Shown piece by piece: positions 552 to 60,121 of a DNA stretch of 64,000 nucleotides; positions within the stretch are counted from its first letter, which is position 1; every line of letters starts with the position of its first letter. Origin of the DNA: Methylocapsa acidiphila B2 (lineage in GTDB: Bacteria; Pseudomonadota; Alphaproteobacteria; Rhizobiales; Beijerinckiaceae); contig NZ_KE386496.1 in assembly GCF_000427445.1 (NCBI RefSeq), positions 434,001 to 498,000 of the forward strand, written 5' to 3'. The notes below the pieces were generated by a model. That model saw only the letters and a program-made list of their open reading frames with translations, had not been told where the DNA came from and made no database searches. The translations under genes and the position numbers were made by a program.

Positions 552-1568
552 CTAGTGATAGCCTTCTCCCTCGCGCAATTTGCCGCGGAACGTCCAATAA
601 ACGAAGGCGGTGTAGCCGAGAATCACGGGCAGCATGATCGCGACGCCGAAGAGCATGATCTTCAAAGAGGCGGAGGCTGCTGCAGCCTGCCAAAGATCGA
701 CTGAAGGCGGGACGAGATACGGATAAGAGGAAATAGCCAAGCCCAGGAAGCATAAAAGGAAAATGCCGATCGTCCCGAAGAAGGGCTTGAGCTCGTCCCC
801 GCGCGCCAGCCAGCGCCACACGAGAAAAAACAGGACGGCGGTCGCGAGGGGCAGGGGCCAAAGAAAGTAAATATTCGGAGTAGCGAACCAGCGCGCCCCG
901 ATATGTGCATAGCGTAAAGGCGTCCAAAGGCTGACCAGCGCGGCGAATATCGCAACCGTCACAAGAAATGGGGGCGCGACCCGGCGGGCGTGGGCCTGAA
1001 CGTCGCCGCCCGTCTTCATGATGACCCAGCATGAGCCGAGCAGCCCGTAGCCGGCGACGAGTCCGAATCCGGCCATGATCGAGAAAATCGAGAACCAGTC
1101 GAACGGTCCGCCGGCGAACTCGTCGTTGCGAACCGTGATTCCCTTGAGCAGGCCGCCGAGGATGAGGCCTTGTGCAAAGGCGGCGGTGATCGATCCGCCG
1201 CAAAAGGCCAGCGTCCAAAGCCGTTTCGGCTTAGCCGTTGCGCGGAACTCGAAAGCGACTCCGCGCAGGATCAGCGCCAGAAGCATCAAGATCACGGGAA
1301 TGTAAAGCGCCGGCATGATGATCGAATAGGCCAACGGAAAGGCTGCAAGCAGGCCGCCTCCGCCGAGCACCAGCCATGTCTCATTGCCGTCCCAGAACGG
1401 CGCGACCGAAGACATCATCGTGTCGCGATATCTGTCGTTTCCCGTAGTCAGATAAAGGACCCCGATTCCGAGATCGAAACCATCCAGAATCACATACATT
1501 GCGACGCCGGTCGCGATGATGCCGGTCCAGATGACAGGCAAATACCATTCAAAACTCATCATCGCCAA
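552..1568 (-). CDS. cydB: Cytochrome bd ubiquinol oxidase subunit II
   Basis: Subunit II of the cytochrome bd quinol oxidase, the integral membrane partner of CydA, which reduces O2 to water without pumping protons. The 338-residue product opens with the typical first helix (WTGIIATGVAMYVILDGFD) and shows about eight or nine hydrophobic segments. It lies 30 nt downstream of cydA in the same direction, so the two form an operon. The first methionines are clustered (MAMMSFEW), and initiation at the third (1559) is possible. I see no small cydX gene between its stop and the tRNA, and no cydDC assembly transporter nearby. Confidence 0.95.
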   Translation of the reverse strand: MAMMSFEWYLPVIWTGIIATGVAMYVILDGFDLGIGVLYLTTGNDRYRDTMMSSVAPFWDGNETWLVLGGGGLLAAFPLAYSIIMPALYIPVILMLLALILRGVAFEFRATAKPKRLWTLAFCGGSITAAFAQGLILGGLLKGITVRNDEFAGGPFDWFSIFSIMAGFGLVAGYGLLGSCWVIMKTGGDVQAHARRVAPPFLVTVAIFAALVSLWTPLRYAHIGARWFATPNIYFLWPLPLATAVLFFLVWRWLARGDELKPFFGTIGIFLLCFLGLAISSYPYLVPPSVDLWQAAAASASLKIMLFGVAIMLPVILGYTAFVYWTFRGKLREGEGYH

Positions 1569-1598
1569 TCTCCTTGGCTGATCTCCGCGGCGGGCTAA

Positions 1599-2975
1599 TT
1601 AGATGTCGTCGCTGGTCGCGGCCGAGAGCGGACGAGAGGGCATGGCGATCGGAGCAGCCAGAACATCGGGCGTCGGGCCCTTGTTGATCAGCCGGTTGAT
1701 TGCATAAATGCCGGTAGAAAAGACAACGCCATAGACGAGCACGAAAAGCGCGAGCGAAATCTGCACGGCCTGGACGTCGACCGGCGACGCCGCCTCGTCG
1801 GTGCGCAGGACCCCGGTCGCGAGCCAGGGCTGGCGTCCGATTTCCGTCACCATCCATCCGGCGATGATCGCGATGAACCCAGCAGGCCAGGACGCGGCCG
1901 CGACTTTCAAGAAAAGGCGGTTCGTTTCAAGCTTGCCGAAAATCCACAGAGCGCCGCCCCAAATGACGAAACCCAGAAGAGCGAATCCGATCGCGACCAT
2001 TAGGCGAAAAGAGAAGAAAACTGGGACGACGGGAGGCCGTTCATTTGGCGCGTATTGCGACAGGCCAGGGAATTTGCCGTTCCAATCATGCCGGATGATC
2101 AGGCCGCCGAGATGCGGGATGGCGAGTTGGAAGAGATTGGTCTCGGCCTTCTCGTCGGGCCAACCGAATAGCACCAGAGGCGCAATCTCATTGCTGTCCC
2201 AATGCCCTTCGATCGCGGCGAGCTTTGCGGGCTGATATTCCGCCGTGTCGAGGCCGTGTTGATCGCCGATGAAGATTTGCAGCGGAACGAGGATCAGAGC
2301 TAGCCCGAGCCCCATGCGCAGCATGGTGCGGGCATGGGTCTCGAAACGTCCCGCGAGAGCGAAGCGCGCGCCGACCGAAAGCACGACGAGCGCGGTGGTG
2401 AGATAGGCGCCGGTCACCATATGCGCGAAGCGGTACGGAAAGGTCGGGTTGAAGACCACGTTCCACCAGTCGAGCGGGAAGGCGATCCCGTTGCGGATTT
2501 CAAATCCGCTTGGATATTGCATCCAGGAATTGGCGGACAGAATCCAGAACGCCGAGCCCGCAGTGCCGATCGCAACCATGATCGCCGAGGTCAGATGCAA
2601 CCACGGCGGGACGCGATTATGGCCGAACAACATGATGCCGAGAAAGCTCGCCTCGAGAAAGAAGGCGGTGAGCACCTCATAGGCGAGAAGCGGGCCGAGC
2701 ACGTTGCCCGTCACATGCGAGAACCGGCCCCAATTGGTGCCAAACTCATAGGACAGGACCAAGCCGGAAACGACGCCCATGGCGAAGGATATGGCGAATA
2801 TCTTCGTCCAGAACCGGGCGAGGTCGCGATATCTGTCTTCCCCGGTCCAGCGCCAGCGCGCGAGCAGGACCGCGACGAAGGCCGAAAGGCCGATTGTGAA
2901 GGCCGGAAAAATGATATGAAACGTGACAGTGAAGCCGAACTGTATGCGGCTCAGCATCGTGTGATCGAAATCCAT
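1599..2975 (-). CDS. cydA: Cytochrome bd ubiquinol oxidase subunit I
   Basis: Subunit I carries hemes b558, b595 and d and the quinol site. At 458 residues it lacks the C-terminal insertion of the long Q-loop form, so it belongs to the short Q-loop class that includes cyanide-insensitive oxidases (CioA). Visible motifs are an N-terminal His in TVTFHIIFPAFTIG, the Q-loop motif GDQHGLDTAEYQPAKLAAIE and several transmembrane helices. It is first in the cydAB operon. The region upstream (2976-3185) has one TTGAT half-site near 3079 that could belong to an FNR-type box, but the partner half is not convincing. Confidence 0.95.
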   Translation of the reverse strand: MDFDHTMLSRIQFGFTVTFHIIFPAFTIGLSAFVAVLLARWRWTGEDRYRDLARFWTKIFAISFAMGVVSGLVLSYEFGTNWGRFSHVTGNVLGPLLAYEVLTAFFLEASFLGIMLFGHNRVPPWLHLTSAIMVAIGTAGSAFWILSANSWMQYPSGFEIRNGIAFPLDWWNVVFNPTFPYRFAHMVTGAYLTTALVVLSVGARFALAGRFETHARTMLRMGLGLALILVPLQIFIGDQHGLDTAEYQPAKLAAIEGHWDSNEIAPLVLFGWPDEKAETNLFQLAIPHLGGLIIRHDWNGKFPGLSQYAPNERPPVVPVFFSFRLMVAIGFALLGFVIWGGALWIFGKLETNRLFLKVAAASWPAGFIAIIAGWMVTEIGRQPWLATGVLRTDEAASPVDVQAVQISLALFVLVYGVVFSTGIYAINRLINKGPTPDVLAAPIAMPSRPLSAATSDDI

Positions 2976-5630: not shown

Positions 5631-8600
5631 TCACTCTGCGGCGTTGACGGGCGCGATCGTCGCATCCTTCGACTTCCCGCGCTCCTGCAATCGTTGAAGA
5701 ACCACGAAAAACGACGGCACGAAAAGCACGGCGAGGCAGGTCGAGGCGATCATGCCGCTGAACACGCTGATGCCAAGGGAGCGGCGGGCGTTGGCGCCGG
5801 CGCCGGTCGCTACGACTAAGGGCACGACGCCGAGGATGAAGGCGAAGGAGGTCATCAGAATGGGCCGGAACCGCATGCGCGCCGCGTCGACCGCGGCCTC
5901 GATGATCGGCTTGCCGTCGACCAGTCGGCGCTCGCGTGCGACCTCCACGATCAGGATGCCGTTCTTGGCCGATAGGGCGATCAGCAGCATGAGGCCGATC
6001 TGCGTGTAGAGATTGTTGGCGACGCCGAGGCTCGTCAAGGCGATGACCGGTCCCAGCAGCGCCAAAGGCACGGCGGAAAGCACGGCAAGCGGTAAGATCC
6101 AGCTCTCATATTGGCCGGCGAGGCAGAGATAGACGAGCATGAGTGAAATCGCGAAGACGTAGACGAGCTGGTTGCCGACGATCTTCTGCTGATAGGACAT
6201 CGCGCTCCATTCATAGGACACGTCATTCGGCAGGGTCTTCCTGGCGATCGCCTCCATCGTTTCCATGGATTGTCCGGAGCTAAATCCGGGCGCGGGTCCG
6301 CCGATGATCGTCGAGGACGGATAGAGGTTGTAGAGCGTGATCAGCGGAGGGGCGACGAGCGGGCTGATTTGCGCGATGGCGCCGATGGGGATCATTTGCT
6401 GATCCTTGTTGCGCACATAGAGGTCGAGGAGGTCCTCGGGGTGCCGACGAAACTTCGAATCCGCCTGCACATAGACCTGGTAGGACTGGCCGAATTTATT
6501 GAACTGATTGACATAGGTCGAGCCGAGATAGGCCGTGAGCGTCGAAAACACGTCGCCGACGGAGACTTTCATGGTCTCCGCTCGCGCGCGGTCCACGTTG
6601 ACGCCGACGTGGGGCGCATCTGGTCGGAATGTCGTGAGAACATGTTGAAGCTGAGGATCTTTGTCGGCGGCGCCGATCATGTTGCGAGTCAGCTCATATA
6701 GTTTGCGATAGTCGAAACTGCCGCCGAGCAGCTCGACCTGCATTTGAAAGCCTCCGGCGTTTCCGATTCCTTGAATCGGCGGCGGCACCAGGACGAAGGC
6801 TTTGCCATCGGTGATCGCCGCGAGCTCACCCTGAAGCCGCTTGTAGATAGAGACCAGATCTTGATCCTTGGCCTTCTCGCGCAGGCTCCAGTCTTTGAAG
6901 ATCACATAGGCGACGCCGCCATTGGCGAGCGTCGCGCTATTGTCGAGCACGGACTGGCCCGCGATGGCGATCACATTTTCAATTCCCGGAGTCGCGCGCG
7001 CGATCTCGCTGGCCTTTGCAAGCGTGGCCTGGGTGCGCTCCAGCGAGGCGCCGTCCGGCAGCTGCACGGCGATCATCGCATAGCCTTGATCCTCGTTCGG
7101 GATAAAGGCGGTCGGCAAGCGGGCGATGCCGAAGACGCCCAGCGCCGAGAGCCCGAGGCCGATCGCGACCATCAGGCCGCTTCTGCGCGCCATGGCCCCG
7201 ATCAAGCCGGCATAGGCGTCCTCCATGCGTTGATAGACGACATTGAAGCCGCGATAGAACCAGTTGCGCTGTTCCGGAGGAGTAGGCTCGCGCAACCAGA
7301 GGGCGCATTGCGTCGGCTTCAGCGTCGCGGCGTTGACCGCGCTGATCAGAGCGGTGGCGGCGATCACCAGAGCGAATTGCGCGAACATGCGGCCGGTCAA
7401 GCCCGGCATGAAGGCCGCGGGAAGAAACACGGACATGAGCACGAGCGTGATGCCGATGATCGGCCCGAATAATTCGCCCATTGCGCGGATCGCGGAATCA
7501 TGCCCCGACATGCCGCGCTCGATATATTTCGACACGCCTTCGACGATGACGATCGCGTCGTCGACCACGATGCCGATCGCCAGGACGATGCCGAACAAAG
7601 TCGAGAGATTGATGGTGAAGCCGAGCGCGGCCATTCCCGCGAAGGCGCCGATGATCGTTACCGGGACCGTCGTCGCGGGCACCAGGGTCGCGCGGAAATT
7701 CTGCAAAAAGACCAGGATCACGATCAGAACCAGGACGCCCGCCTCGTAGAGGGTCGTGTAGACTTCGTCGATCGAGGCCTGAACGAAAACCGTCGTGTCG
7801 AAAGGAACCGAGTAGGCGAGGCCTTGTGGAAAGCGGCCCGCCAATTGCGTCATTTTTTTCCTGACTTCCTTCGCGACGGTCAGAGAATTGGCGTCGGGCG
7901 TTTGATAGATGGCGACTCCCGCGCCCGGTCGGTTGTTGAGCTTGAAATCCTGCGAATAGGTCTGGGCGCCGAGCTCCACGCGCGCCACATCCCTCAAGCG
8001 GACGAGGCGGCCACCTTGAGCGGTCTGATCCTTGACGATAATGTCGGCGAATCCGGATGGGTCGGCCATGCGCGACTGGATGTCGACCGTATATTGAAAA
8101 TCCTGATCCTTCGGCGCCGGCGGCATGCCGATCTGACCCGCCGCCACCTCCTGGCTCTGTTGCCTGATGGCGTCGATCACCTCTTTCGGCTGCAGCCCGA
8201 AGGAATAAAGCTTCTCGGGGTCCATCCAGATGCGCATGGCGTAGTCACCGGCGCCGATGACCTTGACGCTTCCGACACCGGGCAGGCGCGCGAGCTCGTT
8301 CACGAGATTGATGCTCGCGTAATTGCTCATGAACAGGCTGTCGAAGCGTCCATCCGGAGAGTTGAGGGTGACGATCTGAAGAATGGCGGTGTTTTTCTTC
8401 TGGATCGTCACGCCCTGCGATTGCACCGACAAAGGCAGCGAGGCGAGCGCGACGGCGACGCGATTCTGGACCAGGACTTGCGCCGTGTCCGGATCCGTGC
8501 CGATCTCGAAGGTCACCGTCAGCGTGTAGGTGCCGTCGGCGGCGCTGGTCGATTCCATGTAGAGCATGCGGTCGACGCCATTGACCTGCAGCTCGATCGG

Positions 8601-8792: not shown

Positions 8793-10141
8793 GGCCGGGC
8801 ATTCCGATCCGCGTCGTCGGGGGCGCTCGAGGACGAGTCGGCGTCGTTCGGTTTCGGCGTCACCTTGGTCCCCGGCGCCGCGCGCCAGAGTTCGCCGACG
8901 ACGATTCGGTCGTCGGGCTCGATACCAGCGGTCACGACGCGCAGCGTGCCGTATAATTCGCCGAGCTGAACATAGCGCTGCTCGACAATGTCGTCCTTGT
9001 TCACGATCAGCAGATAGCGGCCGCCTTGATCCTCGCCCAGGGCGCGATTGGGCACGAGCAGGGCCTGCTGCGCCTTCAGCCGGCGCGGCAGCCGAATGCG
9101 AACGAACATGCCCGGCAGCAGGGTCCGGTTGGGGTTGCGCAGAATGCCGCGCACGAGCAAGGTTCCCGTCGAAGGATCGATCCCCGGCGCCACATATTCG
9201 ATCGTCCCGCGATAAGGAAATCCGTTCCCGTTTTCGAGGCCGACGTCCACCGGGATTTTGGTGAGCTCCGCGAGGCTCAACCGACGTTGATCGAGATTCG
9301 CCCGGATTTGAAGCGCCTCCTGCTCGCTCAAATTGGCGACGACGTAAATCGGGTCGAGCTGGAGGATCTCCGCGACCGCCGCTTGCTGGCCGACGCCGCC
9401 GATGACATTGCCTGGATCGATCAGATGCTTGCCCATCAGGCCATCGAAGGGCGCCCTGACCTCGGTATAGCTCATGTTCAATTGCGCGATCACGACCTGC
9501 GCCTGCGCCGAGCGCAAATCGCCCTCGGCCTTCGCCTGCTCGAAATGCCAATGATCGAGCTCGATTTGCGTCGCCGCGTCCTTTTTCACCAGGGCGCCGT
9601 AGCGCGCGACCTCGGTCTTCGCGTAGGCGAGCGCGGCCTGTTGCACAAAAAGCTGCGCCTGAGCCTGCTGCAGCTGTGCTTTATATTGGTCCTGCTGAAC
9701 AGTGAAAAGAAGGTCATCCTTCTTCGCGACGGCGCCGTCGGCGAAATGCAGTTTCTCCAGATAGCCTTCGACGCGGGCGATCAGTTTGACGGTGTTGACG
9801 GAGGCCGCATTGCCGGTGACCTCGACATAGTCCGTAACTGCTTGAAGCTTCGGAAGCACGACCGGAATGACAGGCGAGGATTGCGGGTTCGGCGACGGCT
9901 GCGGCGAAGGCGTTTGCTGCGACTTTGCCGGCGGCGAGCTTTCAAACAGCTTTTCCCACCAACTCGCCGCTTGGGATTCGTCGGCGCCGCCGCCAATGAG
10001 CGCGACGAAGCCGAAAGCCGAGGCCATCATGACGCGGCGCCCGATTTGGCGCGCGGCGTGGTAGGCGCGCGCGCTTGGCGAGCGGTTCTTTCTGCGCGCC
10101 CGAGGCGCAGATCCGGTATCCATTGCGGAAAGCCTTTCCAT
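8789..10141 (-). CDS. RND efflux periplasmic adaptor (membrane fusion protein)
   Basis: Bridges the RND pump and the outer-membrane channel in the periplasm. An N-terminal hydrophobic segment (MMASAFGFVALIGGG) is followed by a Pro/Ser-rich linker, a lipoyl/barrel-sandwich half (ARVEGYLEKLHFADGAVAKK), a coiled-coil hairpin rich in Gln and Ala, the second half (VRAPFDGLMGKHLIDPG) and beta-barrel domains, as in AcrA/MexA. The start is uncertain: ATG 10141 follows GGTGAG, ATG 10123 follows GGAAAGG with good spacing. The stop overlaps the pump start by 4 nt and the outer-membrane gene ends 9 nt upstream, so the three are co-translated. Confidence 0.92.
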   Translation of the reverse strand: MERLSAMDTGSAPRARRKNRSPSARAYHAARQIGRRVMMASAFGFVALIGGGADESQAASWWEKLFESSPPAKSQQTPSPQPSPNPQSSPVIPVVLPKLQAVTDYVEVTGNAASVNTVKLIARVEGYLEKLHFADGAVAKKDDLLFTVQQDQYKAQLQQAQAQLFVQQAALAYAKTEVARYGALVKKDAATQIELDHWHFEQAKAEGDLRSAQAQVVIAQLNMSYTEVRAPFDGLMGKHLIDPGNVIGGVGQQAAVAEILQLDPIYVVANLSEQEALQIRANLDQRRLSLAELTKIPVDVGLENGNGFPYRGTIEYVAPGIDPSTGTLLVRGILRNPNRTLLPGMFVRIRLPRRLKAQQALLVPNRALGEDQGGRYLLIVNKDDIVEQRYVQLGELYGTLRVVTAGIEPDDRIVVGELWRAAPGTKVTPKPNDADSSSSAPDDADRNARP

Positions 10142-50385: not shown

Positions 50386-51898
50386 GTTCTTTCGCACCAC
50401 TGTCTTCAAAATATCGCTCGCCTATCTGGCGATCTCCGCGATCGGGGCCGGCCTCGTCCTCGCCAATATCGGCGACAACATCAGAGCGCTGCAGGAAGAA
50501 AAAATCGGCAAGGCGCTCGACTCTGAATTCGCCGAGTTGCGCGATCAATTCGATCATGGCGGCATTCGTCGATTGTATGAGACCGTCGAGCGCCGGACGC
50601 GGCGGCCGGGCGCCGGGCTTTATCTCATCACGACTTTCGCAGGCCAGCCGATCGCTGGAAATATCGCCGCTCTGCCGCCGGAATTGCTCAACCATCCCGG
50701 CATGTTCGAGACGATCTACCAGGCTTCGGGGGGCGGCTCTGAAAAGAAGCGGCGCGCGCTCGCGCGGATTGAAGCCCTGCCGGGCGGCTTTCGGCTTCTT
50801 GTCGGCCAGGACCTCGAGGAGGGCGACAGCCTCCGTCATATCCTCAAGAGTGCGCTTCTAACCTCGCTGTCTTGGCTCGTCGTGATCGGGATGTTCGGCG
50901 GGCTTTGGGTTGCGCGGCGCGTCCTCAACCGCGTCGATGCGATCAACGCCAAGGCCCGCAAGATCGTCGCCGGCGATCTCGCCGGCCGCCTGCCTCTCGC
51001 CGGAACTGGCGACGAGCTCGATCGCCTGGTCGAGAATTTCAACGCGATGCTCGAGCGGATCGCCGAGCTCATGGCCGGCTTGAAGGAAGTTTCCGACAAT
51101 ATCGCGCATGATCTGAAAACGCCGCTGACGCGCCTGCGCGGCCGCGCCGAGCAGGCTTTGCGCCTCGCCAAGAGCCCTGAGGAATATCGCGGCGCGCTGG
51201 AAAAAGTGCTGGAGGAATCTGATCGTCTGATCCAAATTTTCGACGGGCTCTTGATGATCGCGCGGGCCGAGGCCGGAGCGGGGCGCGAGGGGATGAGCGA
51301 CTTCGACGCGGCGGCCGTCGCGCGCGACGTCGGCGAGCTCTATGAGCCGCTGGCGGAGGAGCGCGGCGTCGCGCTGGAGGTCGCCGCCGAGCCCGGCCTC
51401 ATCCTATACGGCAGTCGCGAGCTCGTCGGCCAAGCCGTCGCCAATCTCCTCGACAACGCCTTGAAATATGGCGTTCTGGAAAATGGGCTGGACGCGGCGC
51501 CGCCGACGGCCGCGCAAGGGGAGCGGTTCGCGATGAACGAAAAGCGCGTGCGGATTGTCGCCGGGCGCAATCGCGACAAGATCGAGATCAGCGTCGGCGA
51601 CAAAGGGCCGGGCGTTCCCGAAAAGGATCGCGTGCGCGTCCTCGACCGCTTTGTGCGGCTCGAGAATTCGCGGTCGCGTCCCGGCTCCGGCCTCGGCCTG
51701 TCGCTCGCCGCCGCCGTGGCGCGGTTGCATCGGGGAGATTTGCGTATCGAGGATAATGAGCCGGGCCTTCGCGCGGTCCTCTCCTTTCCGGCGGCGCGCA
51801 TTGTCCGCCGGCCGACTCTGGAACGCGCGCCGGCTGAAGATCCGCGCGGAGGCGCCGGTGAAGGGCCGGCTCCGCCGCGCCCGGACGCTGCGGCGTGA
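50372..51898 (+). CDS. HAMP-domain sensor histidine kinase
   Basis: A 508-residue membrane kinase, partner of the regulator just upstream. Two helices (SLAYLAISAIGAGLVLANIG, and LTSLSWLVVIGMFGGLWVA near 160) bracket a periplasmic sensor domain. HAMP follows, then the H box DNIAHDLKTPLTRLR, N box VANLLDNALKYG, G1 GDKGPGVPEKDR, and G2 GSGLGLSLAAAVARLH. The Ala/Pro-rich tail overlaps the glnE start by 4 nt (GTGA). ATG 50372 has a preceding GTG (50369) as alternative. Confidence 0.95.
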   Translation: MALGKFFRTTVFKISLAYLAISAIGAGLVLANIGDNIRALQEEKIGKALDSEFAELRDQFDHGGIRRLYETVERRTRRPGAGLYLITTFAGQPIAGNIAALPPELLNHPGMFETIYQASGGGSEKKRRALARIEALPGGFRLLVGQDLEEGDSLRHILKSALLTSLSWLVVIGMFGGLWVARRVLNRVDAINAKARKIVAGDLAGRLPLAGTGDELDRLVENFNAMLERIAELMAGLKEVSDNIAHDLKTPLTRLRGRAEQALRLAKSPEEYRGALEKVLEESDRLIQIFDGLLMIARAEAGAGREGMSDFDAAAVARDVGELYEPLAEERGVALEVAAEPGLILYGSRELVGQAVANLLDNALKYGVLENGLDAAPPTAAQGERFAMNEKRVRIVAGRNRDKIEISVGDKGPGVPEKDRVRVLDRFVRLENSRSRPGSGLGLSLAAAVARLHRGDLRIEDNEPGLRAVLSFPAARIVRRPTLERAPAEDPRGGAGEGPAPPRPDAAA

Positions 51899-54855
51899 GT
51901 CGTCCAAGCGACGGACTTGGCGACGCTCTTGGCGGGCTCCCTTTGTGGCGGCGCCTGCGCGCGGCGCCGCGGCTCGCCGACCCGCGTCGCGCCAAGGCGC
52001 GCCTTGCTGAATTTCTCGCGACGCCGGACGCCGAGGAGCTGCGCGCGCTTGCTTCGGAGGCTCGCGTTGGGGCCTTGCTTGAGGCGCTCGCGGATCACTC
52101 CCCCTTTCTTTGGCGGCTGGCGACCGCCGATCCCGCACGCGTCACGCGTTGTTTCCGCGAGCCGCCCGAAGAGCGCCTCGCGGCCTGTCTCGCCGCGCTG
52201 GATCAGGCTTGCGACGAGGCCGCCGACGAAGCCTGCGTCATGCGCGCGCTGCGCCGGGCCAAGCAGGAAAGCGCTTTGCTCATTGCGCTCGCCGATCTCG
52301 GCGGCGTTTTCGACGTCGACGCCGCGACGCGGGCTTTGTCGCGCGCGGCCGAGGCATTTATCTCGGCGGCGCTGCGCTTTCTTCTCAGTGAGGCGCATCA
52401 CGCGGGGGCCTTGCGCCTTCCAGATCTCGCGGCCCCCGAGACCGGTTGCGGCCTCGTCATTCTGGGGCTAGGCAAGCTCGGCGCGCATGAGCTCAATTAT
52501 TCGAGCGACGTCGATCTCGTCGTCCTGTTCGATCCGCAAAGCGCCGTGGTCGCGGGCGCGGCCGATCCTGCCACGAGCTTCGTCCGGCTCACCAAAAAGC
52601 TGGTTAAGTTGCTGCAGGAGCGGACCGCCGACAGCTATGTGCTGCGCGTCGATTTGAGGCTGCGGCCGGACCCCGGCTCGACGGCGGTCGCCGTCGCGGT
52701 GCCGGCGGCTTGCGCCTATTACGAGATCGTTGGCCAGAATTGGGAGCGCGCGGCCTTCATCAAGGCCCGGCCGATCGCCGGCGACATGGCGCTCGGCGAG
52801 AGCTTTATCGCCACTCTCTCCCCGTTCATCTGGCGCAAATATTTCGATTATGCCGCAATCGCCGACATTCACGCGATGAAGCGCCAGATCCATGCGGTTC
52901 GCGGCCACGCCGAGATCAAGGTCGCGGGGCATGACGTGAAGCTCGGGCGCGGCGGCATTCGCGAGATCGAGTTCTTTGTCCAGACTCAGCAATTGATCTT
53001 CGGCGGCAAGCGGCCGCGGCTTCGCGGCGGCCGCACGCTCGACATGCTTGCGGAGCTCGGCTGCGACGGATGGGTGACTCAAGAGGCCGTCGCCGATCTC
53101 AGCGCGGCCTATGTGTTCTTGCGCGAGGTCGAGCATCGGCTGCAGATGCGGGACGACGAGCAGACGCAGCGCCTGCCGGAGGGCGAGCCTTTAACCCGCT
53201 TCGCCCGTTTTTGCGGCTTCGCGCGGGAGCAGGGCTTTCACGACGCGCTCCTCAACCATCTCGATCGCGTGTCGCATCATTACGCGCTCCTGTTCGAGAA
53301 CGCGCCGGGCCTTGACGCCTCCGTCGGCAGCCTCGTCTTCACCGGCGCAGGCGACGATCCGGAAACGCTGCGCACCCTGACGCGGCTCGGCTTCAAGAAA
53401 CCGGCGCTGGCGGCCGAGACCGTGCGGGGCTGGCATTTCGGGCGTCGTCCAGCCGTGCAATCGCCCCGCGCGCGCGAGGTCATCACCGAACTGGTGCCGG
53501 GGCTGCTTCAGGCTTTCTCGCGTTCGGGCGATCCCGACACCGCGCTCGCCGGCTTCGATTCCGCGCTTGCGCGCATGCCCGCCGCGATCGAGCTGTTCTC
53601 GATGCTGAAGTCCGATCCGCGCATGCTTCAGCTCTTCGGCGATCTCCTGGGCGCCGCGCCGCGCCTGGCGCGCATGGCGATCAGCCGCCCGCATCTGCTC
53701 GACGCCACGATCGCGCCGGGTTTTCTCGACGCGCCAACGGACGAGGAGGCGTTCGACGCCCGCGCCGCGCCGCTCCTCGAGGCGCAGTTCGGCATGGAGG
53801 AGTTTCTCGACGCCGCGCGCGATTTTGCGCAGGAGGAGCATTTTCTCATCGGCTTGCGTCTGCTCTCGGGCGCGATCGCGCCCGAGACTGCGGCGCGGGC
53901 CTATTCCGCCCTGGCGGCGGCCGTCGTGCGCGTCTGCCTGTTTTATGTGGAGCGCGCCTTTGTCGCGGAGCATGGACGCGCGCCGGGTGGCCGCTGCGTC
54001 GTCTTGGGCCTCGGCAAGCTCGGCTCGCGCGAGATGACGGCGGCCTCGGATCTCGATCTCATTCTCATCTATGATTTCGACCGCGCCCGGCCTGAAACCG
54101 ATGGGAAGCGGCCGGTCCATGCGGTGCAATATTACACGCGCCTGGCGCAACGGCTGATCTCCGCCCTGACCTCGGCGACGAAGCGCGGCCGGCTCTATGA
54201 GGTCGACATGCGGCTGCGTCCGTCCGGCCGCAAGGGGCCGGTCGCGACGCAGTTCGACAGTTTCGTCGACTATCAAAGCAAAGAGGCGGAGACCTGGGAG
54301 CATATGGCCTTGACCCGCGCCCGCGTCGTCGCCGGCGATCCCGGGCTCGGCGCCGAGGCCGCCGCCGCAATCCGCGCCGTCCTCATGCGCCCGCGCGGCG
54401 AGGCCTTGCCGCGCGAGGTCCGCGAGATGCGAAGCCTCGTTGCGCGGGTGAAGGGCGAGAGCGAGCCATGGGATTTGAAGCTCGCGGCGGGCGGCCTGAT
54501 GGACATAGAATTTTTGGCGCAATTTCTGTTGCTGCGCCATGCGTGCCGTACGCCGGAGCTCATCTGCGTCTCGACCTGCGGCGTGATCGAGGCGGCGGGC
54601 CAGTTCGGCTTTCTTGAAACGGGCGACGCGCAGGTTCTGACCGAGGCGCACCGGCTTTTGACCAATGTGACGCAAATGCTGCGGCTGACCCTGGACGAAG
54701 GCGCGGATCCACGCACGGCGAGCGAAGGCGTGAAACGCCGCCTCGCCGCGGCCGCGCAATTGCCGAGCCTCGACGCGCTCGAGGCCGAGCTCGGCGAGAC
54801 CCGCGCCGGCGTGCGCGCCATTTTCAACAGGGTTTTGGGCGGGGCGGGGGCGTGA
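51895..54855 (+). CDS. glnE: Bifunctional glutamine synthetase adenylyltransferase/removing enzyme
   Basis: Adds and removes AMP on glutamine synthetase to tune nitrogen assimilation. The 986 residues have two nucleotidyltransferase halves with GAHELNYSSDVDLVVLFD (about residue 196) and GSREMTAASDLDLILIYDFD (about 710), each followed by an alpha-helical PII-uridylyltransferase-like domain. The GTG start overlaps the kinase stop (GTGA), so it is translationally coupled to the two-component pair. This order recurs in Hyphomicrobiales. Confidence 0.97.
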   Translation: MSRPSDGLGDALGGLPLWRRLRAAPRLADPRRAKARLAEFLATPDAEELRALASEARVGALLEALADHSPFLWRLATADPARVTRCFREPPEERLAACLAALDQACDEAADEACVMRALRRAKQESALLIALADLGGVFDVDAATRALSRAAEAFISAALRFLLSEAHHAGALRLPDLAAPETGCGLVILGLGKLGAHELNYSSDVDLVVLFDPQSAVVAGAADPATSFVRLTKKLVKLLQERTADSYVLRVDLRLRPDPGSTAVAVAVPAACAYYEIVGQNWERAAFIKARPIAGDMALGESFIATLSPFIWRKYFDYAAIADIHAMKRQIHAVRGHAEIKVAGHDVKLGRGGIREIEFFVQTQQLIFGGKRPRLRGGRTLDMLAELGCDGWVTQEAVADLSAAYVFLREVEHRLQMRDDEQTQRLPEGEPLTRFARFCGFAREQGFHDALLNHLDRVSHHYALLFENAPGLDASVGSLVFTGAGDDPETLRTLTRLGFKKPALAAETVRGWHFGRRPAVQSPRAREVITELVPGLLQAFSRSGDPDTALAGFDSALARMPAAIELFSMLKSDPRMLQLFGDLLGAAPRLARMAISRPHLLDATIAPGFLDAPTDEEAFDARAAPLLEAQFGMEEFLDAARDFAQEEHFLIGLRLLSGAIAPETAARAYSALAAAVVRVCLFYVERAFVAEHGRAPGGRCVVLGLGKLGSREMTAASDLDLILIYDFDRARPETDGKRPVHAVQYYTRLAQRLISALTSATKRGRLYEVDMRLRPSGRKGPVATQFDSFVDYQSKEAETWEHMALTRARVVAGDPGLGAEAAAAIRAVLMRPRGEALPREVREMRSLVARVKGESEPWDLKLAAGGLMDIEFLAQFLLLRHACRTPELICVSTCGVIEAAGQFGFLETGDAQVLTEAHRLLTNVTQMLRLTLDEGADPRTASEGVKRRLAAAAQLPSLDALEAELGETRAGVRAIFNRVLGGAGA

Positions 54856-54992
54856 TGGATTTGCCTTGCACGCTTGGCGAAGTTCGTGTGGACGGGGTCG
54901 GATTTCTGGTTGTGGGTCAGCTCAAGGTCCGCGTTGCGCAAAGAACCGCCAACGTGTCACTTGAACGACGGGATCTGGCCGGAAGCGGATAG
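54855..54992 (+). CDS. Possible 45-aa ORF coupled to glnE
   Basis: Begins with a TGATG overlap on the glnE stop and reads 45 codons (MDLPCTLGEVRVDGVGFLVV at the start). The stop-start overlap favours re-initiation, but the peptide is not recognised and the region is lower in GC. It may be the edge of the imported segment that carries the HNH gene. Confidence 0.28.
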   Translation: MDLPCTLGEVRVDGVGFLVVGQLKVRVAQRTANVSLERRDLAGSG

Positions 54993-55077
54993 CGGTTTAG
55001 GGGTATTGCGTTACCATATTCTGCCATGCGATTTGGCTCTCACTACCTTCTAATAGAACCAAACGTTTTAGGTGACC

Positions 55078-55983
55078 ATGCCAGTTCCGGTCTTGTTTCG
55101 TGAGGTTGTCCCAAATTCTGACGCGCTAATGGGCGTCAAGGCGGTCTGGGGCAGGTCTGGGGAAAGCATTATGTGCTTCGGATCGCGCGGCGATCCTAAG
55201 TCAAAAGACCGAAAGCACTTTCAGCTCGCGCGAGTAGTGGCTGAATATTCACAGACTCGGCCCTACTTGGTTTCGATCGGAGGCGGCCAGTTGGTCACCG
55301 AAGATCTAAAAGGACGCGTTGTAGAGTTGCTCCGGATAACTGGAGCCTACGGCGAAACAACCGCCTTTGTAAGCAATGAGGACTTACGCAAAAGGCTTGA
55401 GCGATGGCCTGTGGCCGTTATCCCATCAGAGGTGTATGCAGTGATTGGCGAACCGCTCCTTGTAGAGGACTTGGGATTTCCTGATCGAAGGATTCTTGAG
55501 AACGCATATGATAGCGTGCGGCGAGATGGCGATCAGGTCGACAGGCTGTGGGATGCCTTAAAAGATCGGAATGTGATTCGTCGCTGGGATGTTGAGCTGC
55601 CGCCAGACTTCAAAGACCCAGGGAAGGTCCGACTGTGCTCAACGTCTATTCCGCGTGTCTCGGTATCTGAAGGCGAGAAGGCGTGGAAATTGTCATTGGT
55701 CGCCGAACGAGATCCTCGTCTGAGGGATCTCGCCAAGGCATACAATCGCTCGAGCAACGGTGGAAAGATCGTTTGTGAAGCGTGTGGGTTCACAGATGAT
55801 CTAGACGCGATGTTTGATGCACATCATCTCCGGCCGATTTCGGCGGGTGAACGGCAGAGCCGGGTAGATGATTTGGCTATCCTTTGTCCAACCTGTCATC
55901 GCATGGCGCATCACAAATCGGCAGAAAAGGTCTCACCGCTTCCGATAAGCAAGATCAAGAATCTGCAATTGGCGCGGTTTTAG
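55078..55983 (+). CDS. HNH endonuclease with unassigned N-terminal domain
   Basis: A 301-residue protein. The C-terminal HNH domain (about 235-285) has the zinc and catalytic residues CEACGFTD, DAHHLRPIS and LCPTCHRMAHH. This arrangement is found in McrA-like and other restriction HNH enzymes. The first ~200 residues (for example VKAVWGRSGESIMCFGSRG and SIPRVSVSEGEKAW) are unassigned and may be a modified-base or DNA-end recognition module. The start is ATG 55078 (GTG 55072 possible). Codons are more AT-rich than in glnE and the kinase beside it, which suggests transfer. No methyltransferase is adjacent. Confidence 0.85.
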   Translation: MPVPVLFREVVPNSDALMGVKAVWGRSGESIMCFGSRGDPKSKDRKHFQLARVVAEYSQTRPYLVSIGGGQLVTEDLKGRVVELLRITGAYGETTAFVSNEDLRKRLERWPVAVIPSEVYAVIGEPLLVEDLGFPDRRILENAYDSVRRDGDQVDRLWDALKDRNVIRRWDVELPPDFKDPGKVRLCSTSIPRVSVSEGEKAWKLSLVAERDPRLRDLAKAYNRSSNGGKIVCEACGFTDDLDAMFDAHHLRPISAGERQSRVDDLAILCPTCHRMAHHKSAEKVSPLPISKIKNLQLARF

Positions 55984-56398
55984 TCTTCCTGAGCCTATGC
56001 AGTACGCCACAATGGAGTTAGCGAGGTCAATAGCTGGATAAGCCGTGGCCTGACGAATGTCCGCGTTTATAATCTCAGAGCTTGGCACTGCGCAGCCTAG
56101 ATGGATGAAACAGAAGCCGCTGGCAGAAACTGAAACGGCCACTTCAAAAAGCGACAAGCGTCCATGTTTGTCGCCTGCTGACGGCGGATTGCGATCTGGG
56201 GCGGGATCGAAGTCTCTTCCCCAACGCAGACCTATATCTCTCTTGTTTTCGATATTTCCCGGCCAAAAGTTATGTCTGATTTCCAGACATCGTCTGCGGC
56301 CCCTGGATGGCCGGGACGGCCGCAAAGCGGTCATCGGTCGCACGCAGCTGAATCTCATCGTCGGGTCAAACCAAGGCGCCACCGCTTTGGCGTAGGCT
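55984..56398. other. Intergenic region after the HNH gene
   Basis: About 415 bases with shadow frames only. No direct or inverted repeats marking an insertion edge were seen by eye. A small part may be the end of the imported segment. Confidence 0.4.
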
Positions 56399-58780
56399 CT
56401 ACCCCCGGCCCACAGCCCTCATCTTCAAAGGCGGCGGCGGCCGGCGCGTCGTCGTCGCCGCATGAAGAAGCTTTTGCCTCGGCGCGTCGCGCGATCCGGG
56501 AATATGGACGAGGACGATCGTGCCGGCGCCGACCGATGAGCGGATGCGCATCGAGCCGCCGTGCAGCGCGATGAGGGACCTTGCAATGGCGAGCCCGAGC
56601 CCCGAGCCCTTCATGCCATTGTCGAGCGCGCGCTCGAACTGCTCGAAGGGCCGTCCGAGCCGGGCCAAGGGACCCGGCGCGATGCCGATCCCATTGTCCT
56701 CGACGTAAATATTGAGGGCGCCCTGAATGATGCGCGTGCGGACGCTGACGCGGCCCTGGTTCGGCGTGAACTTGACCGCGTTGCGCAAGAGAATGGTCAG
56801 GATCTTTTCGAGCGCGGCGCGGTCGGCGTGAACATGCTTGCTGGGCAAGGATTCGGCGACGACCGTGATGTCCTTTTCCTTGGCGATGGCGTCGATCGCC
56901 GCGACCGCGCCGCTGACTGCGGCGTCGATCTCGACATCCGCCTTTTGCAGGCGCACGCGGCCGGCCTCAAGGCGGGACATGTCGAGAATATCGGAGATCA
57001 CGCCGAGCAGATGCTGGCCGCTTTGACTGATGTCGCTGCAATAATCGATATATTTCTGCGAGCCGAGGGCGCCGAAAGTCTGCTGCAGCATCAGGTCCGA
57101 GAAGCCGATGATGGCGTTGAGCGGCGTGCGCAATTCATGGCTCATATTGGCCAGGAATTCGGACTTGGCGCGGTTCGCGGTCTCCGCCTCGGCCTTCTGC
57201 TCGAGATATTTTTCGGCGAGGTCGGCGAGCTGCTGCGCCTGCGTCTCGAGCGTTTGCCGCGACTTGCGCAGATCGGCGACGGTCGCCATGAGGCGGCGCT
57301 CGCTGTCCATCAATTGCTCTTCATGGCGTTTCAGTGCGGTGATGTCCGTGCCGACCGAGACATAGCCACCATCCTTGGTGCGGCGCTCGTTGATCTGGAG
57401 CCAGCGGCCGTCGCCGAGCCGCGCCTCATAGGTGCGCGCGCCGGAGAGCGGCCGCTCGCCGAGCGCGATCTCGGCCTGGATCTGAGGCGGCGTCCCTTCG
57501 GCCATCACATGGGCGTAAGGCGTCCCGGCGCGGACCGCCTCGCTGGAAAGATTGTGGAATTTCTGGAACTTTGAATTGCACATCACAAGCTGATTATGCG
57601 CGTCCCACAGAACGAAGGCCTCGGACACCGTCTCGATGGCGTCGCGCAGGCGCATGTCGGCGGTTGCGGTGCGCTCCGCGAGCGCCTTTTGCTCGGTGAT
57701 GTCGACCGCTATGCCGACGAGATGCGGCATTTCGCCGGGCCTGTCGCGCACCACTTCGGCCCGCGCGCGGAGCCAAATCCATTCGCCTTTGACGTTCTGC
57801 ATGCGAAAGGCATGGTCCATGGAATCAGCTTGCGAGGCCGTCAGCGCTTCGGCGATGGAGGCGAGGTCGCCGTCCTGGGGATGTACGAGCGCGTTAATGT
57901 CGCCGAAGGACAGGAATTGCCTGTCCGGCGTCATGCCGAGGATCTCATACATGGAATTCGACCAATAGATGCGGCCGCGGGCGAGATCCCAATCCCAAAG
58001 TCCGCAGCGGCCGCGGCTCAACGCGGTGTCGATGCGGTCGCGCACGCGCTCGCAAACCTTGTCGGATTCGCGCGCTCTCGACGCCTGCCAGAAATAGGCG
58101 ATCGCCATGGCGATGAGGACGAGCGCGGTGCAAAACAGGAGGACGGCGATGCGGAACACATTGCCGCGCCACTCGGCCAAGACCGCCGTCATGGGATGAA
58201 CCACGGCGATTTGGCTGAAGGGCGCATCCAGCGTGCGGACTGTCGCTAGGGCTTCCGAGCCGTCCGACAGGGTAATTCGAAGAACGCCGGCTTTTTCGGC
58301 GAAGATCGTCAACGGCTGTCCAGCCCCCAGATAGTCGGTGAGGGGCCCATGGAAGCCGCGCAAGGGAGGATAAGCCGCGACCACGTCGCCGGCGAGATTA
58401 GTGACGAGGATTTGCTGGCCCCGCGCAAGCGCCCGAGCGGGAACCGCTTGCGCGACTTGCGCTTCGGCTTCGGCGGGGCCCGGCGTCTTGAGCGATGCGC
58501 GCACATGGTCGCCGATGACGGCGCCGAATAATTCGAGATCGGAGAAGGCTTCGGAAATGGCGCGATCATGGGCGTCGCGCGTCATGATCGCGGTGATCGC
58601 GGCGAGCGTCATGACGAAGACAGCGACCATCAAGGGGACGCCGCGGCGCACCCATAGCTCCATCTTGGCCAAGTGAAGGAACGCTGGTTGCGTCGTCCTT
58701 GAGGCAAGTCCTTGCCGATCGGCAAGCCCCTGCAATGCCCCTGCTCGCGCAGCAGCATGAGCCGCGTTTGCACGCGCCAT
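56399..58780 (-). CDS. PAS-domain sensor histidine kinase (PleC/DivJ-like)
   Basis: A 793-residue membrane kinase. Helix LMVAVFVMTLAAITAIM (about 50-66) and another near IAVLLFCTALVLIAMAIAYF bracket an extracytoplasmic domain. PAS domains follow (WDLARGRIYWSNSMYEILG, then FVLWDAHNQLVMCNSKFQ). The H box FLANMSHELRTPLNAIIGFS is typical of the PleC/DivJ/PdhS group that controls cell-cycle regulator DivK. ATPase motifs are LRNAVKFTPNQG, DNGIGIAP and GSGLGLAIARSL. Start ATG 58780 has GAGGGGGCC upstream; TTG 58858 would add 26 residues. No receiver domain is attached. Confidence 0.9.
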   Translation of the reverse strand: MARANAAHAAARAGALQGLADRQGLASRTTQPAFLHLAKMELWVRRGVPLMVAVFVMTLAAITAIMTRDAHDRAISEAFSDLELFGAVIGDHVRASLKTPGPAEAEAQVAQAVPARALARGQQILVTNLAGDVVAAYPPLRGFHGPLTDYLGAGQPLTIFAEKAGVLRITLSDGSEALATVRTLDAPFSQIAVVHPMTAVLAEWRGNVFRIAVLLFCTALVLIAMAIAYFWQASRARESDKVCERVRDRIDTALSRGRCGLWDWDLARGRIYWSNSMYEILGMTPDRQFLSFGDINALVHPQDGDLASIAEALTASQADSMDHAFRMQNVKGEWIWLRARAEVVRDRPGEMPHLVGIAVDITEQKALAERTATADMRLRDAIETVSEAFVLWDAHNQLVMCNSKFQKFHNLSSEAVRAGTPYAHVMAEGTPPQIQAEIALGERPLSGARTYEARLGDGRWLQINERRTKDGGYVSVGTDITALKRHEEQLMDSERRLMATVADLRKSRQTLETQAQQLADLAEKYLEQKAEAETANRAKSEFLANMSHELRTPLNAIIGFSDLMLQQTFGALGSQKYIDYCSDISQSGQHLLGVISDILDMSRLEAGRVRLQKADVEIDAAVSGAVAAIDAIAKEKDITVVAESLPSKHVHADRAALEKILTILLRNAVKFTPNQGRVSVRTRIIQGALNIYVEDNGIGIAPGPLARLGRPFEQFERALDNGMKGSGLGLAIARSLIALHGGSMRIRSSVGAGTIVLVHIPGSRDAPRQKLLHAATTTRRPPPPLKMRAVGRG

Positions 58781-59360
58781 GTCAGGCCCCCTCGAAACTG
58801 ACCGGAGCGATGTGCCGCATCTCTCCGAATCGAGTTCATCTGAGTCTGAGTTGATCAATTTGTCCAGAGTTTAATGAACCGTGAACGCAAAATGTGATCT
58901 TGTCGAAATTATGAACAAGACGGAAACATGGCGCCCAGCGCCGCAGATGGACGGCAAAAACCGGAAATTGATTCGCAATTTAGCTCAAGAAGGTCAGACC
59001 GGCTGTGAAGGCTTGATCATGTTTTTGGACCATTTTCGACCACGCGCGCGGCGAACCCCGCGCCAAAAAGGCGTCTAGCTTTCGCGCCCTTCATCATCGG
59101 TCGCCGCGGAGAATGTGAGATCATTGAGGCGGGATTGCAGCCTTGAAGCACGAACCGTTCGTTCATGAACATGCGGAAGGCGTCGCGCCGTTCAAGAGAC
59201 CCCATCGCGATCATCAACTGCTGGTCGGTTACGACGGCCCGGCCAGAAGCCGGCTGCAGCAGGGAAATTATTTCGAAGCCGAGTTGTTCGCCATTTGACA
59301 GGCGATTTTTGGGGAATGCGCGTCTGCCTTCAGGCGAGACGACGCGCCTTGCAGCCGGCG
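58781..59360. other. Intergenic region with a doubtful small ORF
   Basis: About 580 bases. A frame at 59143-59298 (plus; TTG start, 51 codons) reads HRDHQLLVGYDGPARSRLQQ, which looks protein-like; GAGGCGGG precedes it. It is not recognised. The rest, with the start region of the kinase gene at its left, shows no gene. Confidence 0.35.
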
Positions 59361-60035
59361 CTATGCGTCGGCGGTGACGAGAACCAGCGCGAAGCCGTCA
59401 TGTCCCTTGCTGCCGACGGTTTGAATCTCCGTGGCGCTAACCCTTGGCTCGGCCGCAATCATTGTGTTGAACCGACGTACGCCTTGCACGTTGGGGTCAG
59501 GGCTGTCGGCGTCAATCACCGTACCGTTGCGAACGACGTTATCTACGATAATGAGGCCGCCGCGCCGCGAAAGCTGAAGCGCGAAAGTGAAATAGGCGGG
59601 AATATTCTGCTTGTCGGCGTCGATGAAAATCAAATCGAAGGGACCCGCCCCTTCCGCGACGAGCTGAGGCAAGACGTCGAGCGCGCGGCCGAGGCGCAGA
59701 TCGACTAGGTCGCCGAGGCCAGCGCGGGCGATATTGGCGCGCGCGACCTCGGCATGTTTTGGATCGGATTCGAGCGTGATCAGGCGGCCGTCCGGTGGCA
59801 ATGCCCGGCCGAGCCAGATGGCGCTATAGGCGCCGAGCGTCCCGATCTCAAGAATCTTCTTTGCGCCTTGAATGCGGGCGAGCAAATGCAGGAGCTTGCC
59901 CTGGTTCGGCGCCACCGCGATTTTGGGCAGGCCGGCGGCGTCGCTCGCTTTCAGCGCGGCGTCGAGGGCAGGGTCGGCCGGCACCAACAAGTCGGTGATA
60001 TATTGATCAATGCTTGTCCAAAGCTGCTCGGTCAT
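59361..60035 (-). CDS. Class I SAM-dependent O-methyltransferase
   Basis: A 224-residue enzyme of the caffeoyl-CoA/catechol O-methyltransferase family (methyltransf_3). Motifs are ILEIGTLGAYSAIWLGRAL for SAM binding, GRLITLESDPKHAEVARANI, the metal-binding FIDADKQNIPAYF, and GLIIVDNVVRNG. Start ATG 60035 matches the family start (MTEQLWTSID); the frame is open 21 codons upstream. It is downstream of pepN in the opposite sense of function. Substrate unknown. Confidence 0.93.
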   Translation of the reverse strand: MTEQLWTSIDQYITDLLVPADPALDAALKASDAAGLPKIAVAPNQGKLLHLLARIQGAKKILEIGTLGAYSAIWLGRALPPDGRLITLESDPKHAEVARANIARAGLGDLVDLRLGRALDVLPQLVAEGAGPFDLIFIDADKQNIPAYFTFALQLSRRGGLIIVDNVVRNGTVIDADSPDPNVQGVRRFNTMIAAEPRVSATEIQTVGSKGHDGFALVLVTADA

Positions 60036-60121
60036 GTCGGGTCTCGCAGGTGTGTTTCGTTCATGACGCGCGGGGGCTCGCGCGCCCCTTGCGTCCAAGT
60101 GGCAAGAGAGCCCGCCTTGCG

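Follow-up and report, generated by a model that had tools for sequence, protein, structure and literature searches.

A predicted PUA-superfamily/HNH protein of Methylocapsa acidiphila B2 as a likely single-polypeptide modification-dependent restriction endonuclease

Background

The PUA-superfamily fold class holds the SRA, EVE and YTH readers of modified bases. Type IV restriction enzymes of EVE-HNH, EVE-PD(D/E)XK and YTH-McrB composition have been described or predicted (PMC7641849, PMC7897488), and YTH-HNH fusions were named as future work in 2024 (PMC11037411). In VcaM4I, an EVE-HNH enzyme (5mC/5hmC), the EVE domain (1-147) is followed by a helical linker (148-178) and an HNH domain (179-309), the modified cytosine is flipped into a pocket of Y130, W82 and P24, and the protomers dimerise via HNH (PMC7897488). 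PUA-like specificity modules of type IV systems are also found in the YTH-domain McrB of Thermococcus gammatolerans (6mA) and in the N-terminal domain of Staphylothermus marinus McrB, where the sensors are fused to NTPase McrB, and the HNH type IV enzymes ScoMcrA, EcoKMcrA and TagI have NEco, SBD and SRA sensors. Type IV enzymes are known to be paired with adjacent BREX systems; one of them is BrxU, a DUF262-DUF1524, NTP-dependent protein, and the host mark of BREX is N6mA (PMC8565348). A 2026 survey of BREX reports HNH genes, either standalone or fused to wHTH or SRA, as auxiliary effectors (PMC12839542).

PUA-HNH type IV enzymes are, in other words, already known, and the protein analysed here represents a new sequence family within an established type of bacterial anti-virus defence. 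Among the parts of the literature consulted, no paper was recognisable as describing this family, which may be included in the architecture screen of Lutz et al. 2019 or in REBASE.

Results and Discussion

The gene and its genomic setting

The gene lies in a window (the whole stretch of DNA that was analysed, 64,000 nucleotides) within an interval of distinct composition.

54856..56398, no strand: AT-rich interval from the glnE stop to the kinase stop (GC profile, congener loci)
55078..55983, plus strand: gene of the PUA-like/HNH protein, 301 aa, ATG start

The longest open reading frame opens at GTG 55072 (303-aa frame), however, ATG 55078 is the likelier start, since short relatives start at or near the equivalent place; an AGGT ribosome-binding-like stretch, seen by eye, stands directly 5' of this ATG. 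The original prediction had placed the gene between glnE and a PleC-like kinase, and a Pfam scan confirmed both flanks, with GlnE upstream (51895-54855) and, downstream, a PAS/HisKA/HATPase kinase encoded on the minus strand (56399-58858). The gene had also been described as more AT-rich than both neighbours, which is borne out by a GC3 of 0.54 as against 0.82 for glnE and 0.79 for the kinase. Overall GC is ~0.52-0.54 across the gene and 0.61-0.73 across most of the flanks, with further dips to 0.55-0.60 near 50.0-50.7 and 58.5-59.5 kb of the window. The claim that no methyltransferase adjoins the gene likewise agrees with the scan of five window neighbours, amongst which an O-methyltransferase (59361-60098) is the sole methyltransferase, the remaining flanking ORFs being judged by eye. 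A second HNH protein is encoded elsewhere in the genome by a 369-aa ORF (L004:1447-2553, near 568.7 kb of C2), and its likeness is limited to the HNH part.

The distribution of the gene is patchy. A protein search of 99 genomes (its own and 98 relatives, including 14 congeners) detected full-length likeness in its own genome only, two weaker matches in other genomes covering residues 183-283 and 247-285. Counting the own genome, 2 of 398 genomes of the phylum have a match to the N-terminal part alone, 5 of 397 genomes of the order match the family profile, and 14 of 15 genomes of the genus contain the kinase. The gene itself was found in none of the 14 congeners. Since the gap between the glnE and kinase matches measures only 0-123 bp in 11 of 13 congener loci (in one of the other two, G013, glnE falls outside the stretch examined), the gene is an insertion in this lineage that arrived within the genus. 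The comparison of this interval in relatives thus upholds the imported look that had been suggested for the patch, and the gene is not kept at this site in all relatives.

In one congener (G003), glnE and the kinase are separated by another insert, of about 1.9 kb. This insert (L042, about 602-2163, minus strand) holds ParE and HigB toxin genes, each beside a small ORF that has no Pfam match and is antitoxin-like by eye, and a second copy of the glnE 3' tail (43 aa, 53%) lies between the two toxin gene pairs. In view of this insert and the glnE tail copy, different accessory genes have entered the interval, which has the look of a site where accessory cassettes insert. A search around the window gene for traces of insertion, in the form of direct repeats or a duplicated glnE tail, gave nothing above noise.

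Domain architecture and conserved residues

The protein was divided into the following parts.

55105..55587, plus strand: predicted sensor domain, residues ~10-170, with a predicted PUA-superfamily (YTH/EVE/ASCH-like) fold (two AF2 models)
55588..55755, plus strand: linker with two helices, model residues 196-210 and 213-226 (AF2 model)
55756..55980, plus strand: HNH nuclease domain, residues 227-301 (Pfam, AF2 model, alignment)
55774..55911, plus strand: putative zinc cysteines C233, C236, C270 and C273, with H249, H250, H274 and H278 (Pfam, alignment; roles by analogy with HNH enzymes)

The only above-cut-off Pfam match of the protein is HNH (PF01844), at residues 235-282 of the 303-aa frame, with 37 bits against a cut-off of 21.4. 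The stretches CEACGFTD, DAHHLRPIS and CPTCHRMAHH, which had been read as an intact HNH motif, are indeed so, and the cysteines and histidines listed above (301-aa numbering) are invariant across the 17 intact members of the family. The roles that we give to the HNH residues are taken over from HNH enzymes, in part from PMC7897488. The canonical HNH Asn position is occupied by D265. VcaM4I has H224/N241/D250 with a serine before H224, whereas the window protein has H249-H250/D265/H274; the HNH Asn is structural, and moniker residues are not uncommonly swapped for equivalents (PMC7897488). The best PDB sequence match is EcoKMcrA (E 5e-5), which covers HNH only. The protein resembles the HNH type IV enzymes ScoMcrA, EcoKMcrA and TagI in its HNH nuclease part; of their sensor domains (NEco, SBD and SRA), SRA gave no match in the Pfam scan.

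The first ~200 residues had been described as an unassigned domain, and at the level of sequence this view stands. Over the first ~210 residues, no convincing match was obtained in Pfam, NCBIfam, PADLOC or PHROGs at E <= 1 (one PHROG match at E 0.48), nor in PDB sequence and profile searches (best E 0.076); noise-level matches aside, NCBIfam, PADLOC and PHROGs detect the HNH part alone. A Pfam scan at E <= 1 placed no EVE, YTH, ASCH or SRA model on the protein, and no sequence match to a housekeeping family arose for the N-terminal part in Pfam, NCBIfam, PADLOC or PHROGs. An hhalign comparison of the N-terminal domain with EVE domains from relatives (20 loci read, wrong-strand rows containing stops removed) was negative, a weak test with both alignments shallow, and an ASCH domain was found in 4 of the 60 relatives searched, too few for a profile. 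Judged from sequence, the putative PUA-like sensor family is covered by none of the models searched.

Predicted fold of the N-terminal domain

Comparison of the N-terminal residues with SRA and PUA/EVE folds had been proposed, and models from AF2 yielded matches to the PUA superfamily. The model of the window protein, built on 13 family sequences, has a mean pLDDT of 84.7 and a pTM of 0.82, the five models spanning 54.0 to 84.7. Its residues ~15-166 align with the YTH structure 5zuu at Z 8.3 (140 residues, 3.7 A), followed by ASCH 5y6b (Z 7.8), EVE 2hd9 (Z 7.4) and the N-terminal domain of S. marinus McrB, 6n0s (Z 6.5); by the guidance of the structural aligner, a best Z of 7-8 is typical of models without a clear match and can reflect a common arrangement. 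Judged from their titles, 48 of the 50 PDB matches listed are PUA-superfamily proteins, the EVE proteins PH1033 and MJECL36 among them, and the two non-PUA entries are DrmAB and HNH-Cascade. A second model, with the long form L018 as its lead sequence (40% identical to the window protein; pLDDT 78.5, pTM 0.50), gave a best Z of 8.9, with PUA-superfamily proteins in all 50 matches listed; the two models have most alignment rows in common and are not independent. In both, YTH entries top and fill most of the structure lists, EVE and ASCH being tied within about 1 Z. Foldseek returned no match at E <= 0.001 for the window model (top match ScoMcrA, E 0.013, probability 0.21), and neither did the BFVD fold search, whose top rows are mainly HNH or unnamed proteins. 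VcaM4I-like enzymes have an extra strand beside strand 1, downstream of the core; in the window model, a strand at residues 165-168 follows the core of the N-terminal domain. On the basis of these models, residues ~15-166 are predicted to adopt a PUA-superfamily (YTH/EVE/ASCH-like) fold.

If the fold prediction is right, the order of PUA domain, helical linker and HNH in the AF2 models is that of the published VcaM4I layout, in a protein of similar length (~300 aa). VcaM4I is listed in the structure searches of both models and aligns across both domains of the window model (residues 16-301, Z 7.7, 209 residues, rmsd 11.6). However, it gives no sequence match among the PDB matches at E <= 10, and its N-terminal domain is EVE, whereas that of the window protein is not reported as EVE by Pfam. 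The predicted PUA-like specificity module is shared with the T. gammatolerans and S. marinus systems, from which the window protein differs as a direct nuclease fusion with no recognised NTPase. Since no NTPase domain was found, the enzyme is probably NTP-independent. Neither of the BrxU domains, DUF262 and DUF1524, is reported in the protein by Pfam.

Relatives and long forms

The 18 relatives comprise 2 from viral contigs, 12 genome loci and 4 from genomes of the order to which the window belongs; 16 of them are intact and 39-62% identical to the window protein. Across the 17 intact members, the window protein included, 52 positions are invariant, 24 of which lie up to residue 170, and comparison with L009 gave a pN of 0.26 and a near-saturated pS of 0.80. 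The gene is under purifying selection and, by the invariant positions and the low pN relative to pS, is more than a chance ORF. Going by the record names, 11 of the 12 genome loci belong to Alphaproteobacteria; the twelfth, L018, is labelled Mycobacterium sp. KBS0706, which could reflect either long-range transfer or a mislabelled record. Two of the 19 members are broken. L020 is a fragment with an IS66 transposase after it, and L019 (L019:7992-8920) is frameshifted and split into 99- and 210-aa ORFs, either by sequencing error or by loss through conflict with the BREX mark.

The intact members fall into two architectures, with and without an N-terminal head. The long forms (L017, L018, L055, L056 and L058) have an extra ~100 residues or more at the N-terminus and together make up one side of a branch with full support. 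The head, predicted to be all-helical in the L018 model, has no Pfam match above cut-off in the proteins scanned (L008, which is the same protein as L058, L017 and L018), and that of L018 has no PDB sequence match; a guess that it might be the head domain of ScoMcrA found no support in the Pfam or PDB searches. In a search of 72,556 plasmid records, the head (L018:7674-7979) matched 1184, mostly partially, with 4 covering 80% of it; 875 of the 1184 records are typed conjugative, and 32 of the 40 matches listed are annotated DUF3883. In another HNH protein (P0001), a related head gives a match to PADLOC PDC-S36. From these matches, the head may be a portable module of defence-like proteins, without a Pfam match. 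Viral contigs sought for more long forms gave 103 pattern matches and no relatives.

Neighbourhoods and mobility

In 12 of the 18 relatives, a mobile-element signal or a named gene for defence, restriction or a toxin-antitoxin system lies within about 3 kb, a count from neighbours chosen by eye that stands without a background rate.

L006 (viral contig): gene opens in the stop codon of an Mrr_cat ORF
L005 (viral contig): near N6_N4_Mtase
L013: RES domain neighbour
L014: recombinase and AbiP2 reverse transcriptase nearby
L016 (Acetobacter fallax): between near-identical same-strand ORFs 7040-7900 and 9123-9983
L017 and L018: NsnB/OLD/AriA-like ATPases nearby
L019: PglZ and BrxL (BREX) directly upstream
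L020: AbiEi and AbiEii directly upstream
L056: Vsr, C5-methyltransferase, HNH and SNF2 helicase adjoining
L057: resolvase, phage integrase and PADLOC candidate PDC-S31 (weak, 35 bits)
L058: PADLOC candidate PDC-S06 and rve-domain transposase

The relatives left out of this count are L009 (3.7-kb contig), L010 (only another HNH gene), L011, L012, L015 and L055 (SLFN/AAA gene). On the L006 contig, which also holds a type I specificity-like ORF by eye, the Mrr_N part sits in another, overlapping frame, so the Mrr may itself be broken. One of the flanking ORFs in A. fallax was scanned and is a DDE transposase of IS4/5-type, an arrangement as in a composite transposon. The position of L019 directly after PglZ-BrxL resembles that of BrxU/GmrSD, type IV enzymes beside BREX. 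Methyltransferase genes were noticed beside 2 of the 18 relatives (L056 and L005) among the selected neighbours scanned, and their absence from the vicinity is therefore not universal in the family.

Phaeobacter (L010:3742-4912) and Jannaschia (L011:7860-9029) have 1171 bp in common at 98.3%, containing this gene alone, and the rest of the two stretches shows no mutual match at E 1e-5; such a block with unmatched flanks in two genera fits a one-gene unit. The Paracoccus locus (L012) matches these two over 982-1002 bp at 80-81%. The ends of the L010 block lie in two repeat copies (73% over 52 bp), and no such pair was found at the block ends in L011. The proposal of a one-gene defence system gains support from this block and from the relatives found beside restriction, BREX, Abi and mobile genes.

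Proposed function and alternative explanations

We consider it likely that the product of the gene is a type IV, modification-dependent restriction endonuclease in which a PUA-like sensor and the nuclease form a single polypeptide. A type IV enzyme was also the original prediction, and the predicted PUA-superfamily fold, the HNH domain and the defence and mobile neighbours of the relatives all speak for it. In the mechanism that we envisage, where base flipping, dimerisation, cleavage and phage restriction are carried over by analogy, the gene would have arrived by itself, as a cassette of one gene that entered between glnE and the kinase. As in the VcaM4I, SRA and YTH precedents, the N-terminal domain would flip a modified base of incoming DNA into a pocket, for which the invariant W110 and F34 are candidate residues, and the helical linker and HNH domain, probably dimeric, would then cut the DNA near the modified base with a single metal ion. 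By analogy, H250 would act as the general base, H249 and H274 as metal ligands, and the four cysteines would hold zinc. A partner methyltransferase would not be needed, since the target mark would be absent from host DNA.

In the genome itself, one match to a C5-methyltransferase and four to N6/N4-methyltransferases were found (of the four, three exceed the cut-off and two lie side by side). The closest of either kind to the gene is about 0.1 Mb away, and the target should, given these matches, not be one of the genome's own C5 or N6/N4 marks. A more specific proposal, tentative and on balance rather unlikely, is that the N-terminal domain belongs to a PUA-superfamily reader lineage of its own, which would recognise a base modification of phages distinct from ordinary 5mC or 6mA. 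It is suggested by these methyltransferases, by the location of L056 beside a C5-methyltransferase and by that of L019 after BREX genes, although the last argument is weakened as L019 is broken.

The same methyltransferase matches, together with the Vsr, HNH and SNF2 helicase genes that accompany the C5-methyltransferase at L056 and the N6/N4-methyltransferase near L005, could be accommodated by a type II-like or partner-dependent nuclease, in which the PUA-like domain reads sequence or structure and a methyltransferase elsewhere gives protection. We regard this as quite improbable, since DNA methyltransferases were noticed beside only those two of the 18 relatives (more may exist beyond the selected neighbours scanned), and since the near-identical block moved between two genera without its flanks, which would be harmful to an unprotected recipient. 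HNH effectors with ligand sensors exist, and the defence-rich neighbourhoods of the relatives would also suit an abortive-infection effector, in which the N-terminal domain would respond to some sign of infection that is not modified DNA and free the HNH domain to act on host or phage DNA. The Foldseek matches do include CBASS Cap5, although at no better than E 1.7-4; no signal-making partner gene was noticed by eye in the ORF listings, and the structural matches are mainly nucleic-acid readers, which makes such an effector very improbable.

The HNH domain, the one-gene mobility and a weak PADLOC homing-endonuclease match on the HNH part could instead point to a homing or otherwise selfish endonuclease promoting only its own spread. 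However, the gene lies between genes and not inside an intron, intein or target gene, and both glnE and the kinase are full length; the flanks of L010, L011 and L012 are unmatched and other neighbourhoods differ by eye, and the N-terminal domain is conserved, as seen from its share of the invariant positions. There is hence only a slender chance that the protein is of this kind. That the window copy is a decayed or inactive remnant, as the two broken relatives might suggest, is the least probable reading considered here, because it is full length, keeps the HNH residues of the other 16 intact members and has a pN well below pS in the comparison with L009.

Conclusions

Modified-base readers are phage defences as well as laboratory tools for mapping modifications. 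The family of this likely type IV endonuclease is compact, requiring one gene, and surveys with the curated models searched here, PADLOC included, would see an HNH endonuclease only. The 17 intact members in two architectures make the base specificity of the family directly testable.
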